In this document: piece after piece, positions 4,406-15,248 of the stretch
Layout: each line of letters opens with the position of its first letter
Numbering within the stretch: the first letter of the stretch is position 1
NCBI GenBank assembly: GCA_002707085.1
Contig: PALY01000109.1
Coordinates: 1-17,511 of the forward strand
Direction of reading: 5' to 3'
From: Deltaproteobacteria bacterium
GTDB lineage: Bacteria > Myxococcota_A > UBA796
DNA: 17,511 bases
Program-made: the position numbers and the translations under genes
The notes under the pieces: model-generated
The model's input: only the letters and a program-made list of their open reading frames with translations
Told to the model about the DNA's origin: nothing
Database searches by the model: none

Positions 4406-4437
4406 TCGTGCGTGATAGGCTTCGACGTGGAGGAACA

Positions 4438-5544
4438 ATGCGATTCGCTGCCGCCACGCTTGGCTTTCTACTGTCTGCGCCCTCAATGGCCCAAGCGGTG
4501 GAGTCACATGATCGGGTAGCGGTGGTGATCGGCCTTGATCAACCATCGGATTCGGTACCTCCGCTTCCCAACGGGCAGCGGCATGCGCGCGCGTTGGCAT
4601 CTGCCTTGGCAGAACATGCTGGGTATGAACGAATTTTCACACTGATTGGTACGGCCGCCACATCGGAAACGGTGATCGAAACCACGAAACAAGCGTTGGG
4701 GCAGACATCCGATAATGGCACCCTTCTATTTGTTTATGTGGGGCATGGTGCAGGCGGTGACTTTGGTGAAGCAGCCTTGCTCACCCGAGGGGCGACGGTT
4801 GATGAGCCTTCAACCACTGGATTGTCCATGGAACGTTTGGCCAAGGTGTTGCGTCCCCGTACGGGTGATCAGAACATCATCACAATGATCGATGCCTCAC
4901 ACGATGGAAGCGTGGATGGGGTTGCGTTGATTGGGCCATCGGCTGAAGGGTGGCCTGATGTTCCTGAATGGGGGCTGGCGATCACGACTCCGGCTGCACG
5001 TGGACTTACGGCCGAAGCAGGAGAGTTGATACCCGCTTTGACCGACGGCATGTCGGGGTTGGCCGACGAAAATTTTGATGGTCACGTCACCATTTCAGAA
5101 CTGGCGAGGTACCTCGGTGGCCGCATGAGCGATCAGTCGGGAAGTTTACTGAACACAGCCGGTGCAGTCGCGGCGGGTTTAAAGCTCAGTGATGCGGGCC
5201 AAAGCAAACCCGTTGCGGTGACACCTGCTGAAGTCGTGACATCCAATGCTGATGTCGTTGCGGCTTCGCCAGCTTGGTCGGGTCGGCAGATTGGAGCGGT
5301 GACGTTGATGTCCGTTGGTGGATTGTCGGCCGCTGCGAGTGTCGTCATGTATGCATCCAAGCGGAGCGAATGTGTGGACCGAGATGGTCAGCTTCGGTGT
5401 GGAAATGACAGCAGTTATCGCTCCTACCAAGTGACACAACACATGTTGGGTTGGGCCGGTGCAGGCATGCTTACAGCAGGCTTGGGACTTCAATTTATTC
5501 CAGCTTCTACTGGAGCTACGGTGCAGGTTGTTGGGCGGTTCTAA
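4438..5544 (+). CDS. Caspase-fold (C14-like) exported protein with Ser in place of catalytic Cys, EF-hand and two C-terminal TM segments
   Basis: A 368-residue protein from the ATG at 4438, chosen because GGAGG lies 4 nt upstream and a signal peptide (MRFAAATLGFLLSAPSMAQA) begins there; an ATG ten codons upstream lacks both. The domain at 25-185 resembles bacterial caspase-like peptidases. It begins with RVAVVIGLD, has a conserved Leu/Pro/Asn-Gly region before RHARALASAL, and a histidine loop LLFVYVGHG with His103. The nucleophile loop normally reads DACHSG but here reads DASHDG, with Ser154 at the Cys position, so classical cysteine protease activity is doubtful. Residues 210-221 (DENFDGHVTISE) are a canonical EF-hand Ca2+ loop, a known accompaniment in caspase-like proteins. 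Two hydrophobic helices (about 284-305 and 333-355) end the protein, separated by a segment with Cys312 and Cys321. It is probably inner-membrane anchored with the caspase domain in the periplasm. The next gene begins inside its 3' end. Confidence 0.8.
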   Translation: MRFAAATLGFLLSAPSMAQAVESHDRVAVVIGLDQPSDSVPPLPNGQRHARALASALAEHAGYERIFTLIGTAATSETVIETTKQALGQTSDNGTLLFVYVGHGAGGDFGEAALLTRGATVDEPSTTGLSMERLAKVLRPRTGDQNIITMIDASHDGSVDGVALIGPSAEGWPDVPEWGLAITTPAARGLTAEAGELIPALTDGMSGLADENFDGHVTISELARYLGGRMSDQSGSLLNTAGAVAAGLKLSDAGQSKPVAVTPAEVVTSNADVVAASPAWSGRQIGAVTLMSVGGLSAAASVVMYASKRSECVDRDGQLRCGNDSSYRSYQVTQHMLGWAGAGMLTAGLGLQFIPASTGATVQVVGRF

Positions 5545-6442
5545 GCGGGCGTGGCTCGCAGCCGCGGTGTGTGCATTTTCGGCTGTTTTTGCAGCAGATG
5601 ATGACGTCCGGGTGGGACTCTGGCTGCTGGCGGCGCTGTTGATACCACTGCTCCGCAGGTATGCCGTCGCTTCATTGAGTATTGCATTGTTGATTTTGTA
5701 TCTGCGGTATTCAGGGCACGGTGATGTGCATTTTCCGGCCATTGATTGGATTCGGCCTCGAGGCATGGATTTGTGGCCAGGCTTGCTGCAAACGATGGGC
5801 ATGGTGATTGTGTTCGCCTTCGGCCGGCGTGCATTGGGACGTGCGTGTTTTGCCGCACGTATCGCCGTCATTTTGGGTGCTGCGCTTGCTGCAGGGTGGT
5901 GGGGTTTCCCTCAGCACTTCAATCTGGACCGTATTGGTGCAGAGAATCCAGATGGCATGCCCATGGTGGTCAATGGTCGAATCGAAACACGTGATTGGAG
6001 AAGGGAAGTGTTGCCATCGACCCCATCCGAATCATGGTCCACCATGATGGATAACGAATTGACCTTGTCTGGAATTGCCCATGGAATGCAACAACAACAA
6101 TACAGCTCCGGAGGTGTGTTGCGTGCAACACTTTGGGAGGTCCAACGGTCTTTGGCCCGCGTGTCCATGGGTTTGACGGTTCTGGCAAGTGCTGCGTCTG
6201 TGTTGATTGTGCTGGTGTTGCCCATGTCGCGTCGCATGGGTTGGCTGGGCTGGCTGGCGGTTCACCTAATTGGTGTGACCTTGGCCTTTCCTCCGTTGGT
6301 CAACATTGTGCTTCGAATGACGGGTTGGTTGGGCAGGTTGCCGGAATCCTCTGGACATCTGGGCTTGGCGTTTGCGTCCGCGGCAGCCACACTGGTTGTG
6401 GTGTACTTGGCGAATGAGGCGAGCAAAGAATGGTCCAAATGA
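5528..6442 (+). CDS. Polytopic membrane protein of unknown function
   Basis: A protein of about 304 residues. The start is uncertain: I prefer TTG at 5528 (or 5531), giving LLGGSKRAWLAAAVCAF, since it lets the first membrane segment start properly and overlaps the upstream gene by only 17 nt. The only in-frame ATG nearby, at 5459, would overlap by 86 nt. GGAG at 5512-5515 is a distant RBS. About eight hydrophobic segments can be seen, near residues 8-23, 29-42, 47-60, 84-98, 108-126, 212-232, 240-263 and 276-296. A hydrophilic loop of about 85 residues (127-210) lies between segments five and six and is probably extracytoplasmic. No family motif is recognised. It overlaps genes on both sides, which implies coupled expression with the caspase-like and sulfatase-like proteins and a possible shared membrane complex. 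Confidence 0.7.
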   Translation: MLGGSKRAWLAAAVCAFSAVFAADDDVRVGLWLLAALLIPLLRRYAVASLSIALLILYLRYSGHGDVHFPAIDWIRPRGMDLWPGLLQTMGMVIVFAFGRRALGRACFAARIAVILGAALAAGWWGFPQHFNLDRIGAENPDGMPMVVNGRIETRDWRREVLPSTPSESWSTMMDNELTLSGIAHGMQQQQYSSGGVLRATLWEVQRSLARVSMGLTVLASAASVLIVLVLPMSRRMGWLGWLAVHLIGVTLAFPPLVNIVLRMTGWLGRLPESSGHLGLAFASAAATLVVVYLANEASKEWSK

Positions 6443-7806
6443 AGTCATGGTTGTTGTGGGTGACGCTGGTAGGGTGTGGTGGCTCTTCCTCGGAGTCAGA
6501 GACAGTGGCCCCTTCTTCATCTGCGGATGCGGGAGTCGACATCGTCGTTACACTGGTCACGGGGGTTCGCAGTGATCCGAAAGGGAACGCGGATGAGTCA
6601 TTCCTTGATGCGACCGGGTTGACCGGGACACGATTTGTGAATGCCTATGCACAATCTCCCTCAGGTTTCGCGAGTTTAGGGTCTTTGCTGACGGGCCGAT
6701 ATGTGGGAGCAATCCCCATGTGTGGATTGCTACTCGAGGGTGACAGGGTTCACACCGATGACCAACAAGCTTGGTGCGCCCAGATCCCAGAGCAGCAAAA
6801 CACGCTCGCCGAAGTTTTGGGTTTGTATGGCTACCGAACTGGTTTTTTTACTGGAGATTTGGCCAGCGCTAAACGGCTGAATCATGGGTTTGACACCGCG
6901 GATCATCACACGCAATGGTCAGATGCGATGGACGCCGCGAAATCGTGGTGGGCTGAGGACTCCAGCAAGCCACGGCTTTTGGTTGTGGTGCTTTCTGATG
7001 ACGAAGGGGACATTTTACAGTCGTCTTCGCTTCCCCGCTTTCCCGAAAGAAAGTACCAGTGGCTTGAACCATTGGACCCAAGAGTGGGCAAGGTGTCACT
7101 GGACGCTGACTCCGTTGCAACGGCCTATTCGTCAGCGTCGAAGCGTGCAGGTGCTTCCATTGCTTCTTTGCTCAAGGGGCTGGATGAGACCCGGCCACGG
7201 TGGACGGTTGCGGCGTCGACCAACGGGATGAGTCTGACGGAACGAGGCGGGTTTTATGCTTCAGCGGTTCCATTGTTGACCAACAACTTGTTGGTGGATC
7301 GGGCCGTACGAGTACCGCTTCTTCTGTCGGGTCCGGGACAATCGGCGGTCAATGATGAATCGATCGTTGAATTGGTCGATATATTTCCAACACTGGCAGG
7401 GGTAGCCGGTGCCATTGCTCCGGCGGGTCAGCCAGGTTCAGACTTGCGGACGCCCGTTTCAGGTACAGCCTATGCAGAGTTTGGCGACATGCTTTCTGTT
7501 CGGCATGAGTCGGACTTTCTGGTGTTCCGCTGTACTCAACACAACGCCACCAGCATTGACCCTGGATTGACTCGGGTGTTGCAAGATCCTAATTCTGCAC
7601 GCCCACCTGAGTTCTATTCGCTATACAATGTGGTGGACGATCCGATGCAAGAACACAACCTACGACAGTCTGATGAAGCCAAGTTCGTGGCGATGCGCAA
7701 GCGTATGATTGCGCTTAGAACCGGGGCAGCTGCGGTGCCTGAAGATGCCATCACACCAGAACGTTTGTGGGCGTTGCGCATGGCTCCCAGTGATGGGTAT
7801 TGGTAA
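6430..7806 (+). CDS. Sulfatase-fold lipoprotein lacking catalytic residues (pseudo-sulfatase)
   Basis: A 458-residue lipoprotein: signal MVQMKSWLLWVTLVGC, lipidated Cys16, then a Ser-rich linker. ATG 6430 is preferred to 6439 because GAGG lies 10 nt upstream. The fold is recognisable as an alkaline-phosphatase-superfamily sulfatase by TRFVNAYAQSP, SLLTGRY (85-91), LAEVLGLYGYRTGFFTGD, the segment with AVRVPLLLSGPG, IVELVDIFPTLAGVAG, and the C-terminal EFYSLYNVVDDPMQEHNL. The residues needed for catalysis are gone. Where active enzymes have CxPxR, this reads GFASL (79-83), so the formylglycine Cys is Gly. The N-terminal metal Asp pair is replaced by VTGVRSD. The later DHG metal site reads TNGM. 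Sulfate ester or phosphonate hydrolysis is therefore unlikely; ligand binding or a structural role is more plausible. It overlaps the membrane protein gene by 13 nt and is followed 2 nt later by the propeller lipoprotein. Confidence 0.82.
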   Translation: MVQMKSWLLWVTLVGCGGSSSESETVAPSSSADAGVDIVVTLVTGVRSDPKGNADESFLDATGLTGTRFVNAYAQSPSGFASLGSLLTGRYVGAIPMCGLLLEGDRVHTDDQQAWCAQIPEQQNTLAEVLGLYGYRTGFFTGDLASAKRLNHGFDTADHHTQWSDAMDAAKSWWAEDSSKPRLLVVVLSDDEGDILQSSSLPRFPERKYQWLEPLDPRVGKVSLDADSVATAYSSASKRAGASIASLLKGLDETRPRWTVAASTNGMSLTERGGFYASAVPLLTNNLLVDRAVRVPLLLSGPGQSAVNDESIVELVDIFPTLAGVAGAIAPAGQPGSDLRTPVSGTAYAEFGDMLSVRHESDFLVFRCTQHNATSIDPGLTRVLQDPNSARPPEFYSLYNVVDDPMQEHNLRQSDEAKFVAMRKRMIALRTGAAAVPEDAITPERLWALRMAPSDGYW

Positions 7807-7808
7807 AT

Positions 7809-9851
7809 ATGTTTCGTTTTATGTCATTTTTGCTGGTTGTGGCCTGCGGTGAAAAACCCATTCCACTGGACCGACCCGGCCCCGATTTAGAAGTCAGCAT
7901 CAGTCCCGCCAACCCAACGACTGTTGATGACTTGGTGGTCGACGCAGATCCAGTGTCTTCCGTTGGGCGTGTCGAAGTAGAGTTGGTGTGGTGGAAGAAT
8001 GGGGAAGCGACCGAACATATGGACAATGTCCTCGCGGCCGAACATACGACCAAGGGAGACGTATGGACGGTGCAGGCCCTGGGTACTGATGCGAATGGTC
8101 TGGGCGATGTGGTTGTTTCGGAAGAGGCATTGATCGAGAATTCAGCGCCGACTACGCCTTCCATTCGTATTTTGCCTTCTGCTCCGACGGTGGGGCTTCA
8201 GCCCATGCAATGTGTCATTGACGAACTTCCCGTAGATGCAGATGGAGATTCCCTTACGCATACATTCACTTGGTTGCGAGAAGGTGAGAATTATACCGAT
8301 GCAGGCAGCCAGGAATTTGATGGTGATTTGATCGATGTCGAAGCGTTGGTGGAGGGTGACCATTGGCAATGCAGTTTGGTGGTTTCCGATGGAGATGAAG
8401 AAACTGAAGAGGTCACGGCAGATGCGGTTGTAGCAGGAGCCTTTGAGGGGTTTGGGGATGAACCACTCCCATTGTCGACGGCTGACAGGGTTTTCTATGG
8501 GGTCGACCATCGCGATTACATGGGGCATGCGGTGGCGAGCGCGGGTGACATTGATGGCGATGGTATCGACGAATTGATGGTCAGCGCACACCGCATTGAG
8601 CGGGAAGGCCGAAACCGGGGCGCAACATTCATTTTTAGGGGAGTGGACCTGCAAGAAGGAGAAGGTACGGACCCAATCGATGGTGCCGCTTGGGTTATCG
8701 ACGCCAGCCACGACTTTGATTTCAGCGGGTACGCTTTGGCAGGTGCGGGTGATGTTGATGGAGATGGGTTGGATGATGTACTCGTCTCGTCCCACAATGC
8801 GGATGACGTCGCATTCAATTCTGGTGTTGTTGGGCTGTTTACTGGAGCGACCCTGGGGGATCCTCGTGAACTGTGGACCGATGAAAACTCGGTGCGCTTC
8901 GTTGGAGAAAGCCTGAGGGCGTATACCGGCTATTCAGTGGATTCCGCAGGAGATGTGGATGGGGATGACCGACCAGACATTTTGATCGGAGCGATGGGTA
9001 ATCTTGATCGGTACCCGTACGAAGGTAAGGCCTACGTGGTCCGTGCAGCCGAGTTTGAAGATGGGGATGAAGTTCTGTTGGGTTCGACCGGAACCACGCT
9101 GTGGGGTGAAGAGCGCCGTGGCTATGCTGGTTGGTCGGTATCGGGTGCCGGAGATGCGGACGGAGATGGCTTAGATGACGTCCTTGTGAGCGCTTGTGGT
9201 ATGGAGTTGGACGGTACGGAACAGGGCAGGGTCTACCTTGTTTTGGCGGATATGATTGATGGTGCGGACAATGTTGAGTTGAGTGACGTTGATACCACTT
9301 GGTCCGGTGAAACAGACTTCGCATGGGGCGGCTATGACGTAGAAGGTCTCGGTGACATCGACGGAGATGGTCGCCCTGAATTCGCGATGTCGGCATTGCT
9401 GGAAGCGGGTTTTGATCAGTATCCGGGCCGTGTGTATGTGTTTAGGGGTGGACCGATGCCGTCCGAACAGCGCATGTCGAACGCTCCACTTCAGTTTGTC
9501 CCCGATGGTGACTCTGATCAGTTCGGTCGTGAAATCGCCGGCGATGGTGATGTGGATGGTGATGATCTTTCGGACCTATTGGTCGGTGCAATGACCGCGA
9601 GTCAACCTGATAGTGGCTCAGGGGCGGCGTACCTATGGTTGGGTGCTTCTCTTGCCTCTGATGGAATTTATGAAGCTCGGAACGCGGATGCTCGATTCAG
9701 TGGCAACGGGCCTGGAGATCTGATGGGTGCAGGGCTTTCCATTGCACATGATTTGGATGGCGATGCGCTCGACGACATTGCGATTGGGGCCCACGGCACA
9801 CAAGTTGATGGGGCTGAGATCGGAGCGGTGGGTATTTGGTTTAGTCGCTGA
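7809..9851 (+). CDS. FG-GAP repeat (integrin-alpha-like) beta-propeller lipoprotein
   Basis: A 680-residue lipoprotein from ATG 7809 (a TTG at 7800 is an alternative); no strong Shine-Dalgarno is seen, so it may depend on coupling to the gene ending 2 nt upstream. The signal MFRFMSFLLVVAC gives Cys13. Residues 20-210 look like one or two Ig/PKD-like extracellular domains with Cys135 and Cys188. Residues 227-680 contain seven FG-GAP repeats, each with a Gly-Tyr/Phe-Gly start and a Ca2+ loop of the type DxDGDGxDD. The loops begin near residues 247, 315, 382, 449, 516, 581 and 648, a spacing of 65-68 residues, which predicts a complete seven-bladed propeller. Such proteins are surface adhesins or protein-interaction platforms. 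Its 3' end overlaps a convergent gene by 11 bp. Confidence 0.9.
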   Translation: MFRFMSFLLVVACGEKPIPLDRPGPDLEVSISPANPTTVDDLVVDADPVSSVGRVEVELVWWKNGEATEHMDNVLAAEHTTKGDVWTVQALGTDANGLGDVVVSEEALIENSAPTTPSIRILPSAPTVGLQPMQCVIDELPVDADGDSLTHTFTWLREGENYTDAGSQEFDGDLIDVEALVEGDHWQCSLVVSDGDEETEEVTADAVVAGAFEGFGDEPLPLSTADRVFYGVDHRDYMGHAVASAGDIDGDGIDELMVSAHRIEREGRNRGATFIFRGVDLQEGEGTDPIDGAAWVIDASHDFDFSGYALAGAGDVDGDGLDDVLVSSHNADDVAFNSGVVGLFTGATLGDPRELWTDENSVRFVGESLRAYTGYSVDSAGDVDGDDRPDILIGAMGNLDRYPYEGKAYVVRAAEFEDGDEVLLGSTGTTLWGEERRGYAGWSVSGAGDADGDGLDDVLVSACGMELDGTEQGRVYLVLADMIDGADNVELSDVDTTWSGETDFAWGGYDVEGLGDIDGDGRPEFAMSALLEAGFDQYPGRVYVFRGGPMPSEQRMSNAPLQFVPDGDSDQFGREIAGDGDVDGDDLSDLLVGAMTASQPDSGSGAAYLWLGASLASDGIYEARNADARFSGNGPGDLMGAGLSIAHDLDGDALDDIAIGAHGTQVDGAEIGAVGIWFSR

Positions 9852-11994: not shown

Positions 11995-12924
11995 GTGGCA
12001 GAAATGACAGCCGTTATCCAGGTAGAGCTACCCTCAGGGGATGAACTCGCCATCATTCGTCGGCGATACGGCTGCGGAGGCCCTGGTGTACCTCGGGTAT
12101 GCATTGTGGCCGGTATACGAGGCGACGCTCCTGAAGGCACCCGGGTCGCACATCAGGTGGCCAGAATCCTGGAGCAACTTGAAGACAGACTGACCGGATT
12201 GGTTGATATTTACCCGTGCGCAAACCCCTTGGGCGCCCACGTGGGTTCCCGGCAGTGGCCATTTTTTGATGTGGATTTGAATCGTTTGTTTCCCGGAAAA
12301 GAGACAGGGCATCAGCCGGATCGGGTTGCACATGCATTGTGTTCGGACATCCGCGGTGCCACACAAGTCATCGAATTGAGAGGCGCCCGGGCTGCATTTT
12401 CGGAAGTGATTCATGCCCAGGTGCGTGAGAGAGACAATGCGGCAGCGGATTTGGCATTGGGTGCCAATGTCTCTGTTGTTTGGTCTCGGAAGCCTGGTCC
12501 GGCTGCCACCAGCACATTTGCTCACCAATTTCCCGGCACCATTGTTTTAGAAGGCGGAACGGGGAATCGTCTGTCTGCCGGCGTGGGTCAGGAACTTCAA
12601 GAGGGTGTGCTGCATTTGTTGACGCAGTTGGGCATACTTTCAGAAACGGATCTGCCCTTTCATTGGGCGGCGATGAATCGCCCTGTGCGGGTAGATGATG
12701 CACAAGTTTTTCGTGTTCGGGCAGAGACTTCAGGCTTGTTTTTGCCTGAATTTGAGGTTTGGAGTGAGGTTGATGAAGCATCTGTTTTGGGTACTGTGAT
12801 TGACCCCGAAACCGGACATGTTTTGGAAACCATTCTGAGCCCTAGTGCTGGGCGGGTCATGGCCGTTCGTGAACACCCCGTTGTGTATCCAGGAACGATG
12901 GTGGCTCGAGTGGTCAAAGTATGA
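11995..12924 (+). CDS. Aspartoacylase/succinylglutamate desuccinylase-family paralogue without zinc ligands
   Basis: A 309-residue cytosolic-type protein starting at GTG 11995, with AGGA 7 nt upstream (ATG 12004 is the alternative and lines up with the start of the next paralogue). It aligns by eye with the neighbouring gene and with the AstE/AspA branch of the M14 family. Shared blocks are VAGIRGD, YPCANPLGAH, RQWPFFDVDLNRLFPG, DRVAHAL, VVWSRKPG, and a C-terminal beta-barrel-like domain ending YPGTMVARVVKV. Active family members bind zinc through H-x-x-E and a later DLHS. Here these read R42-G-D-A45 and ELR129G, so all three ligands are lost. The candidate catalytic Glu is kept in IVLEGG (Glu186). 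It may be an inactive partner or a binding protein. It lies 10 nt upstream of its zinc-ligand-containing paralogue. Confidence 0.85.
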   Translation: MAEMTAVIQVELPSGDELAIIRRRYGCGGPGVPRVCIVAGIRGDAPEGTRVAHQVARILEQLEDRLTGLVDIYPCANPLGAHVGSRQWPFFDVDLNRLFPGKETGHQPDRVAHALCSDIRGATQVIELRGARAAFSEVIHAQVRERDNAAADLALGANVSVVWSRKPGPAATSTFAHQFPGTIVLEGGTGNRLSAGVGQELQEGVLHLLTQLGILSETDLPFHWAAMNRPVRVDDAQVFRVRAETSGLFLPEFEVWSEVDEASVLGTVIDPETGHVLETILSPSAGRVMAVREHPVVYPGTMVARVVKV

Positions 12925-12934
12925 GGTTGCAGCG

Positions 12935-13837
12935 ATGACGGTCATTTTCTCGATCGATGCCCCATACAGGGGTCGATATGAACTTCATCGATTGACCTAT
13001 GGGTCGGGAAGTCCATCGATTTCTGTTGTGGCGGGACTACATGGGAATGAACTGAACGGTATTCACTCGGTCAATCTGCTGAACAAGATGCTTCGGGTGC
13101 AACGACCGAAGGGTACGGTTCATCTATTTCCTTTGGTGAACACCTTTGGTGCCGACCAGGCGCAGAAGCGATGGCCATTTGATGACCAGGACATCAATCA
13201 TGCCTTTCCCGGAGATGCGGATGGTTCCGTCGTGCAACGGATAGCCCATGCGTTGTTTCAAGCCACAGATACGGATGTTTGCGTTGATGTGCATTCCGGC
13301 GCCCCTCATGTGCGGGAGTTGCCACAGGTCAGAGCGCCCATGGGCGGCGAAGAACTTGAACTCGCACGCGCCTTGAAGCTCCCGGTTGTTTGGCGTAGGC
13401 CAGGTATACGTTTGGAACCAACAGGGTTGGTTGGTGCTTGGCGTGCCGTGGGTCGAAGGGCGCTTCATGTGGTTGGAGGCCGCGGAATTACGCTCGACAA
13501 CCGTCATGCAACGACCATGGCGAATGGTTTATCCAATCTCTTGGGTCATATGGGTATTTGTCGAGCCATGGATATGGGCGGCACGGGAACATTGGCAGAT
13601 GTGACCCACGCTCAAGTTGAAACCCATCGCGCTTCCTGTGGTGGTTTTTTCGTGGCGGAAGTTCGTGTTGGAGATGAAGTCAAGCCAGGCCATCTGTTGG
13701 GCTACATTCAGTCACCGATGGGTGGTGAACGAATGGACGAGGTTCGGGCAGGACGTGCAGGAATTGTCATGACGGTTCGTGCCTACCCGATGATCCATTC
13801 CCAGGAATTGCTCGTTCGGGTCGCAGGAACCTCTTGA
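12935..13837 (+). CDS. Aspartoacylase/succinylglutamate desuccinylase-family protein with intact zinc site
   Basis: A 300-residue protein from ATG 12935, with GAGG 8 nt upstream (the GAGG overlaps the preceding stop). The family normally removes an acyl group from N-acylated amino acids using zinc. Zinc ligands are visible in VVAGLHGNE (His36, Glu39) and CVDVHSG (His120). Other family blocks are FPLVNTFGAD, RWPFDDQDINHAFPGD and QRIAHALF. Where family members usually have a catalytic Glu in an E-x-G strand, this reads LHVVGG, with Val180, while the upstream paralogue has Glu there. The C-terminal region (about 215-300) is the lipoyl-like beta domain, with GGFFVAEVRVGDEVKPGHLLGYI. Hydrolysis without the Glu is uncertain. 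The gene overlaps pyroglutamyl-peptidase by one base (TGATG). Confidence 0.87.
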   Translation: MTVIFSIDAPYRGRYELHRLTYGSGSPSISVVAGLHGNELNGIHSVNLLNKMLRVQRPKGTVHLFPLVNTFGADQAQKRWPFDDQDINHAFPGDADGSVVQRIAHALFQATDTDVCVDVHSGAPHVRELPQVRAPMGGEELELARALKLPVVWRRPGIRLEPTGLVGAWRAVGRRALHVVGGRGITLDNRHATTMANGLSNLLGHMGICRAMDMGGTGTLADVTHAQVETHRASCGGFFVAEVRVGDEVKPGHLLGYIQSPMGGERMDEVRAGRAGIVMTVRAYPMIHSQELLVRVAGTS

Positions 13838-14391
13838 TGAGACTCCTCGTTGCGGGCTTCGGTCCGTTTGGCGAGGTGAGGGATAACCCTTCCGCGCGAT
13901 TGGCACGTTCGATTGATGGTGAGAAGACCCAAGGTGTTCACATCATCGGAAGGGAAATGCCTGTCAGCTATCGACGCTCAGTTCGTTGCTGTATCGACTG
14001 GGTGAAGGAATTGGACGTAGACGTTGTGATTGGTGTGGGGGTTGCAGTCTCTCGGGATGTCGTCACCGTCGAAAGAACGGGAGTGCGCCCTCTGGAAACA
14101 GTCGAGGCAGATGTGGATGGTCTCGTGACTTTCGAGTCTTTGCAAGACGCACCTGCACAGGTTCACGCCACCATAGACGTAGACCAATTGGCCCTTCATT
14201 TAGATGCTGTGGTCGGTGATGATGCAGGCCGATATGTTTGCAATGCCTGGCTGTATCAGGCTGTGCAAGAAATCGATAGAAAGGTCGGGTTTTTGCATAT
14301 TCCTCCTGAAGGTTTGGATGTTCAACGGTTGCTGCATGCGATCGGTGAGATGTGGGGAGAGCGACGATGGCAACGAAATTCGACGACCTGA
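13837..14391 (+). CDS. pcp: Pyroglutamyl-peptidase I-like cysteine peptidase (C15)
   Basis: A 184-residue cytosolic peptidase. The family removes an N-terminal pyroglutamate (5-oxoproline) from peptides. Seen: the N-terminal fingerprint LLVAGFGPFG..NPSA, the Glu motif VVTVERTG (Glu79), the nucleophile motif GRYVCNAWLYQAV (Cys135), and the His motif GFLHIPPEG (His154), so the Glu/Cys/His catalytic set is intact. It is shorter than the usual 200-215 residues, and the central segment after VERTG lacks the familiar N-x-x-D-A-R-I-P-D-N block; the substrate pocket may differ. ATG 13837 forms TGATG with the previous stop and has AGGA 9 nt upstream. The next gene starts 25 nt before its end. Confidence 0.87.
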   Translation: MRLLVAGFGPFGEVRDNPSARLARSIDGEKTQGVHIIGREMPVSYRRSVRCCIDWVKELDVDVVIGVGVAVSRDVVTVERTGVRPLETVEADVDGLVTFESLQDAPAQVHATIDVDQLALHLDAVVGDDAGRYVCNAWLYQAVQEIDRKVGFLHIPPEGLDVQRLLHAIGEMWGERRWQRNSTT

Positions 14392-15248
14392 TGGAGAGCA
14401 TGGGTGTAAAACCCATGGGAAAGTCAAAGATTCAGACCCAAAAGAAGCCCGTTTCCAAGAAAAAACCTTCGCCTAAAAAGCGGCCAGCGCCATCCAAGGT
14501 TGTACAGAACAACCAAGCTGATCTGATTGCGGCCTTACAGGAACGCATCACCTCTTTGGAGGCATCCTTGGCCAGCGCCAAAAAGGAGCGTGTGAGCGCG
14601 GAACGTGCGGTGACGGAAGCAGAGAGCCGATTGGAAGCATTGCAGGCGATACCCGTGTCAAAGAGTCCGACGATGACGGAAGTTTTGGTCGGTTGGGGTT
14701 TGGAGACTGCCCCAGAAAGAGCAGCGCTGTTTGCCGTGGATAACTGGCTTGAACGACTGATCGGCACACCCGAATTGGCAGAAAATACCGAGATGTACAG
14801 TGAGTTCATGGAGAAATTCGTTGCAGTGTGCAGAGACTGTGATGCCCCATCTCGTCGTACGGTCATCCCTGTGCCGGCCAAACGCTGTGAAGTGTGTGGT
14901 GGTGTCGATATGGAGCGCGCTGTACGCAAGTTTATCGATGCAACACTGGTCAATGGGCGTTTGCGTATCGTGATTGTTGGCCGTGACACGAAGCATCACC
15001 GAATGCTCCGTGACAGGGTGTCAGACTCGCGATTGGTTTTGACCCAGGTACCAGGCAATGTCCGAAGGGATTTGGGTCAAGCTCAAACCGATGTTGATCA
15101 TGCAGATGCAGTGATTGTTTGGGATGGAGATAGCCTTCCGACCGACCTTAAAAGTGTCTACGAAAAGGCAGAGATCGGGGGGGTCGTCGAAGCGTGTGCT
15201 TTGGGTCCATTCCTTGAGTCTGCAGCTGTGTTGATCGCCGGCCATTGA
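14367..15248 (+). CDS. Coiled-coil / zinc-ribbon protein, possible DUF2325-like C-terminal domain
   Basis: A 293-residue protein from ATG 14367, with GGAG 7 nt upstream; it overlaps the pcp-like gene by 25 nt. Order of parts: a short N-terminal motif FDDLMESMGVKPM (5-17), a Lys/Pro-rich basic tail (20-44), a coiled coil (about 50-93), and a helical section (100-150). Next come two Cys pairs, CRDC (155-158) and CEVCGG (174-179), that look like a four-Cys zinc ribbon. A C-terminal alpha/beta domain (198-293) begins with LRIVIVGRDTKHHRML and includes DHADAVIVWDGDSLP. That last part resembles a Rossmann-like receiver or the DUF2325 family, but the match is weak. The basic tail suggests nucleic-acid or ribosome association. 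No function is assigned. Confidence 0.75.
   Translation: MATKFDDLMESMGVKPMGKSKIQTQKKPVSKKKPSPKKRPAPSKVVQNNQADLIAALQERITSLEASLASAKKERVSAERAVTEAESRLEALQAIPVSKSPTMTEVLVGWGLETAPERAALFAVDNWLERLIGTPELAENTEMYSEFMEKFVAVCRDCDAPSRRTVIPVPAKRCEVCGGVDMERAVRKFIDATLVNGRLRIVIVGRDTKHHRMLRDRVSDSRLVLTQVPGNVRRDLGQAQTDVDHADAVIVWDGDSLPTDLKSVYEKAEIGGVVEACALGPFLESAAVLIAGH

Follow-up and report, generated by a model that had tools for sequence, protein, structure and literature searches.

The AstE/AspA family (PF24827) includes succinylglutamate desuccinylase and aspartoacylase, and its active site is scored here at four positions, which we take to be a zinc-binding His/Glu/His triad and a catalytic Glu. In human aspartoacylase (ASPA), the catalytic Glu is Glu178. 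One report describes this residue as contributing to ASPA activity (PMC10240701). Another AstE/AspA-like group, the DoeB/EutE N-acetyl-diaminobutyrate deacetylases (TIGR02994), is represented among solved proteins by 6twl and 6twm. Cooperation between paralogous chains is a feature of M16 peptidases such as the mitochondrial processing peptidase, where a zinc subunit and a zinc-less paralogue act together. Finally, a gene set encoding CP-ATP-grasp, Alpha-E and transglutaminase proteins has been described, in an account that also covers Anbu, as a possible peptide-synthesis system (PMC5666114).

The stretch of DNA analysed here (17,511 nucleotides, hereafter the window) carries two tandem genes, A and B, whose products score above the PF24827 cut-off, as do those of a clostridial pair that we call X1 and X2. 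Compared with AstE/AspA enzymes, A is devoid of zinc ligands, the catalytic Glu is missing from B, and the genes occur in tandem pairs. DoeB is the best NCBIfam match of B, but B scores 53.7 bits and A 21.0 bits against an equivalog cut-off of 402.7, and B is without the catalytic Glu; no ectoine-type families were found among the window proteins scanned. M16 heterodimers differ in belonging to another fold and clan, while in A–B and X1–X2 the identity of the zinc subunit depends on the lineage and the zinc site can be lost. A literature search for tandem, pseudoenzyme or heterodimer AstE/AspA forms returned no such pairs, which does not prove their absence from print, and a search for M16 found none. 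We give about even weight to the reading that A and B form an old, obligate complex born of a duplication, in which catalysis moved or vanished and whose lasting function is something other than ordinary hydrolysis. Somewhat more tentatively, the pair may be an ancient, obligate heteromer of AstE/AspA-fold subunits whose catalytic role switched subunit between phyla and was then erased in some lineages, so that the complex outlived the activity.

Active-site residues of the tandem genes

The features are collected in Table 1. For gene B, the ATG at 12935 is the likelier start, with an overlapping GTG at 12845 as the alternative in the list of open reading frames. The original prediction had named Arg42, Ala45, Arg129 and Glu186 in A and His36, Glu39, His120 and Val180 in B, and a script reading of the window returned every one of them. 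The zinc triad, His-x-x-Glu...His, is absent from A, where it reads Arg, Ala and Arg, and present in B; in neither chain do the triad and the catalytic Glu occur together. The placement of the fourth position also holds up in alignments to solved relatives, of which 2qj8, 3na6, 3cdx, 6twl and 6twm are nearest to B. The catalytic Glu falls on Val180 (2qj8) or Val179 (3na6) of B, with no Glu either way, and Glu186 of A falls on the Glu of 3cdx and, in a profile alignment, on that of 2qj8 (an ungapped single-sequence alignment of A to 2qj8 is off by one here).

Table 1. Features of the A–B pair, its neighbours and the related loci (positions refer to the window unless a locus is named)
Feature	Position	Strand	Description or basis
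Gene A	11995..12924	+	309 aa, GTG start; AstE/AspA-fold without zinc ligands; PF24827 46.7 bits (cut-off 25)
A codons 42-45 (R-G-D-A) at the His-x-x-Glu zinc motif	12118..12129	+	Sequence reading, alignment rows
A Asn96-Arg97	12280..12285	+	121/121 rows
A Arg129, third zinc-ligand position	12379..12381	+	Sequence reading, alignment rows
A Glu186, catalytic-Glu position	12550..12552	+	Sequence reading, 3cdx alignment, 2qj8 profile alignment
Gene B	12935..13837	+	300 aa; AstE/AspA-fold with zinc ligands, without catalytic Glu; PF24827 75.5 bits
B codons 36-39 (H-G-N-E), zinc motif	13040..13051	+	Sequence reading, alignment rows
B His120, third zinc ligand	13292..13294	+	Sequence reading, alignment rows
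B Val180, catalytic-Glu position	13472..13474	+	Solved-relative alignment, alignment rows
Peptidase_C15, pyroglutamyl-peptidase-like	13834..14391	+	185 aa, overlaps B stop; PF01470 82.3 bits
Conserved downstream gene	14352..15248	+	Homologues in 19/28 loci compared
Third AstE/AspA-like gene	L068:6364-7296		Equivalents in L048, L059, L061, L063, L064
ATP-grasp gene upstream of A	L068:8303-9592		PF00289, PF02786; also in L048, L052, L055, L059, L061, L062, L064
Clostridial loci with the CP-ATP-grasp/Alpha-E/transglutaminase set	L160-L162, L164, L168-L173, L175

Conservation was read from 121 rows per protein, namely the window protein plus the best 120 of 336 (A) or of 233 (B) homology matches. 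Among these best matches of A, position 42 is Arg in all 118 rows with a residue there, position 45 is Ala (101) or Thr (17), position 129 is Arg throughout (121/121), and Glu186 lies above the 97% conservation threshold. Equally fixed in A is Asn96-Arg97, presumably the substrate-binding pair of the family, whereas the second position of this pair in B is Arg in only 38 rows, otherwise His (34), Lys (21), Gln (18) or another residue. The corresponding B rows keep His36, Glu39 and His120 without exception (121/121), and position 180 is Val in 80, Ile in 20, Leu in 10, Glu in 7, Met in 2, and Thr and Gln in one each. The altered site of A is, judging from substitution rates, not gene decay, because dN/dS between L053 and L060 is about 0.19 for A and about 0.18 for B, this being the only one of five comparisons without saturated synonymous sites.

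Two residues were considered as a replacement base in B. Glu128 (in RELPQVR) was rejected, since A, X1 and X2 also carry Glu at the equivalent position and the residue is thus not a substitute particular to B. Asp188, past the GGRG motif, is conserved in B and is a candidate.

Pairing and site variation in the window's order

The genome surveys are samples, covering the window's order, its phylum and one clostridial class, and several contigs end inside the pair. Within the window's order, A is present in 36 of 63 genomes (0/21 in family f4, 36/42 in the other families), and all 36 also carry B. It is the next gene after A in 35 of them; the exception is G229, where both genes are at contig ends. 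B with no A in view was seen only in G001 and G278, at a contig end in both. Contig ends also cut B in G004, G242 and G311, and in G008 they cut A, which spans two frames at the contig start. The estimated distance between the A stop and the B start ranges from -8 to +10 bases in the 35 loci and is -4 in 23 of them. Across a 377-genome sample of the phylum, strong A matches are confined to the window's order; two f13 genomes give weak matches, which in the tree fall among ordinary AstE-like proteins. A contig scan with the A profile returned 29 loci; the window's group accounts for 21 of these, and the other 8 belong to Lachnospiraceae or Eubacterium. Three genome records titled Klebsiella pneumoniae (L086, L090, L093) carry the Myxococcota-type A–B locus and look like mislabelled metagenome bins.

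The tandem pair of the original prediction thus recurs: 35 adjacent loci and co-occurrence in 36/36 A-bearing genomes indicate that A and B are co-inherited and probably one functional unit, and a single gene is found only at contig ends. It is improbable that they are two separately acting proteins that share an operon and whose residue patterns reflect independent drift after duplication. Such a reading would sit well with the lack of a believable natural fusion among the 120 listed matches, but it must contend with co-occurrence and adjacency in two groups of bacteria, the 4-base overlap in 23/35 loci, and the low dN/dS of both genes in the one possible comparison.

The substitutions themselves do not stay the same; residues vary among the 34 genomes in which both genes could be scored (G278 was omitted for want of A, G229 because B lies outside the piece, and G008 because its A is unscorable). 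The split seen in the window, with an A that has the Glu and no zinc ligands and a B that has His/Glu/His and no Glu, is found in 15 of the 34. Three, all of genus g10, combine a complete site in B with an A that has Arg/Thr/Arg plus Glu. Another 15, all of family f2, have the triad in neither chain (B position 180 is unread in three f2 rows, those of G004, G242 and G311), and the last, G005, has the triad in B and the Glu in neither chain. A is without its Glu in 8/34; positions 129 and 186 are Asp and Arg in G005 and Gly and Arg in genus g8. The Asp129/Arg186 charge swap in G005, a single event, is suggestive of a salt bridge between the two positions inside A.

The claim that each chain lacks what the other keeps is therefore true of the window and 14 other genomes but fails as a rule. 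Built on it was the proposal that the two halves complete one active site, with Glu186 of A serving, across the interface of a heterodimer, as the general base at B's zinc. The exact split in 15 of 34 genomes, the pairing of the genes, and the constancy of A among its best 120 of 336 homologues and the window (Asn96 and Arg97 in 121/121 rows, Glu186 in at least 97%) are what one would expect of it. However, three pairs have both Glus, 15 have no triad and eight have an A without Glu; the G005 swap ties position 186 to its own chain; and, to our knowledge, known M14 enzymes hold the Glu and the zinc in one chain. With the split present in only 15/34 pairs, donation of the Glu across chains is unlikely, and we regard a composite site as very improbable; as a general rule, Glu186 donated in trans is ruled out by the residue table of the 34 pairs.

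Genus g10 (G011, G023, G033) is informative in another way, as its B has Glu at position 180 (GAG/GAA) where close relatives have Val or Ile, while its A and its Peptidase_C15 are of the same kind as theirs. Against the refuting conditions of the original prediction the outcome is mixed: a B with Glu exists beside a same-kind A, but neither gene occurs singly other than at contig ends. In the tree, the g10 sequences are placed, weakly supported, among relatives with Val or Ile, and their Glu could have been regained, or retained with losses elsewhere; if it was regained, catalysis would matter in g10.

This bears on a further alternative, in which B, with or without A, would still be a working zinc hydrolase that uses another base, and A an allosteric or substrate-binding partner. 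We consider it rather unlikely, although less so than the two alternatives above. In its favour are the His/Glu/His triad, invariant in 121/121 rows (window and best 120 of 233 homologues) and kept in all 13 loci that encode a Peptidase_C15, which argues that zinc is used, and the full site in the B of g10. Against these stand Val, Ile, Leu or Met at position 180 in 112/121 of the same rows, the Arg of the Asn-Arg pair in only 38/121 of them, and the 15 f2 genomes that keep the pair without a zinc triad. Because the pair survives alike with Glu or Val in B and with the triad gone, ligand binding or scaffolding is a likelier lasting role than hydrolysis, as in the duplication-born complex that we prefer.

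The clostridial pair and the origin of both subunits

In seven of the eight Lachnospiraceae or Eubacterium loci, a tandem X1–X2 with a complete X2 is present; L102 holds only the first 42 residues of X2. Among 391 clostridial genomes, X2 (threshold E of 1e-20) and X1 (threshold E of 1e-40) occur in the same 15 and are adjacent in 15/15, counting G381, the search centre, which was picked for having X1–X2. One genome, G382, carries an X1–X2 pair and a second, broken one. The alignment of X1 and X2 with A and B extends to the C-terminal third as well. Of the 22 loci in which X1 could be scored, 20 show the four catalytic residues complete, and in the other two, L102 and L103, Tyr replaces the first His; L166 lacks the N-terminus. 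In X2, all 22 loci show Arg in place of the first His, a residue other than His at the third ligand, and Tyr or Phe instead of the catalytic Glu; the zinc-motif Glu is kept (RGNE). With the full site in X1 and none in X2 (0/22), the active-site assignment is therefore the reverse of that in the window's order, where a full site occurs in B alone (3/34), and in neither subunit of the window itself. X1–X2 looks like an orthologous counterpart of A–B with the roles reversed. Four long proteins among the 120 listed matches were rejected as natural fusions: P0241 and P0257 repeat their own sequence and are assembly duplications, and in P0327 and P0336 a truncated X1 runs into X2, with the junction in a different place in each, for which reasons they were not counted.

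The clostridial pair also has a context of its own. Eleven of 23 distinct loci have it immediately downstream of genes for CP_ATPgrasp_2, Alpha-E and transglutaminase proteins, which places an M14-like pair behind the Alpha-E/ATP-grasp gene set, and a role for X1–X2 similar to that described for the set would fit. The set is absent beside the window pair: none of its families (PF14403, PF04168, PF01841) was found among the window proteins scanned, and PF14403 has no match in the window's genome, an assembly that is 72% complete. The clostridial context is therefore not transferable to the window.

Whether the two pairs stem from one duplication or two was approached with profiles and trees. 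Profile scores are 335 for A-X1, 291 for A-B, 237 for B-X1, 218 for X2-B, 174 for X2-X1 and 163 for X2-A; A and X1 are mutual best profiles, X2 is closest to B, and B is closest to A. In a tree of 73 proteins, A and X1 form one group (98/95), and B and X2 form another (82/80) if the tree is rooted on other AstE-like proteins. When trees were constrained, A and B as one clade was disfavoured (p 0.028, one of several tests), and neither X1+X2 (p 0.24) nor A+X2 (p 0.20) was rejected. X2 has a long branch and an odd letter make-up in several rows, which weakens any placement of it. A single ancestral tandem duplication with the order kept is the better reading of these sequences, supported but not proved; the modest support for B+X2, the fact that A is B's best partner, and the two constraints that were not rejected make two independent duplications possible.

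We envisage that one AstE/AspA-type zinc deacylase (M14-like) was duplicated in tandem and gave rise to a two-subunit, obligate complex, whose first-second gene order would have been kept as A-B in the window's order and X1-X2 in Clostridia, and that the site-bearing subunit then diverged. In Clostridia, X1 would have retained the whole site as a likely zinc deacylase or peptidase, with X2 a pseudoenzyme acting as non-catalytic partner. In the window's order, A would have become the zinc-less subunit, with an arginine-containing pocket (Arg42, Arg97, Arg129) and an intact Asn-Arg site, its Glu186 probably salt-bridged to Arg129. B would have kept zinc at first, with loss of the general-base Glu following in most cases and loss of zinc ligands as well in most of f2; in the window species it probably still binds zinc, without a general base. 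In this order, the lasting job would most likely be to bind, or assemble around, a small ligand of carboxylate, acyl-amino-acid-like or peptide type, which in the window's lineage would be exercised beside a pyroglutamyl-peptidase. Three further observations speak against this picture: the invariant triad of B (121/121 close rows), the Glu that X2 keeps in its zinc motif, and the differing gene contexts of the two pairs.

With gene order unchanged, the pairs form a natural series, from a full site in the first subunit, through a full site in the second, to a triad without Glu and no triad at all. Through them one could test directly how a pseudoenzyme subunit serves its partner and which functions selection maintains after catalysis is lost. 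Succinylglutamate desuccinylase-type labels on both members are no safe guide to activity.

Gene neighbourhood

The gene contexts of A–B and X1–X2 are unlike. In the window, B is followed by a Peptidase_C15 gene whose product keeps Glu, Cys and His in alignment to 2df5 and 1iof, at what we take to be the functional positions of solved pyroglutamyl peptidases. The next gene (14352..15248) has no Pfam match in the window; its relative in L050 scores 20.4 bits to PF10087 (DUF2325), below the cut-off of 33.6. The usual order in families f1, f5 and f6 is A, B, Peptidase_C15, a TPR gene (in f6) and the DUF2325-like gene. Of 28 loci compared, 13 yielded a Peptidase_C15 gene, none of them from f2 or f3. 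In most f2 loci, B is followed by a TPR gene, A is immediately preceded by a biotin-carboxylase-like ATP-grasp gene, or both arrangements occur. In six f2 loci scored, a third AstE/AspA-like gene whose product retains His/Glu/His lies some 3 kb upstream of A, close to the gene for a Rieske protein.

A defence system was considered and set aside: a PADLOC comparison of seven proteins gave one match only, to the product of the 14352 gene (E 0.003). Elsewhere in the window, 4408-5544 has a weak caspase-like (Peptidase_C14) match of 20.6 bits, under the cut-off of 21.4. A 720 aa protein encoded on the minus strand (325-2487) carries a MopE-like putative metal-binding motif (PF11617) within a repetitive Cys/Asp-rich region. 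Positions 6430-9851 encode a sulfatase-domain protein followed by an FG-GAP repeat protein, the second frame starting inside the last codons of the first.
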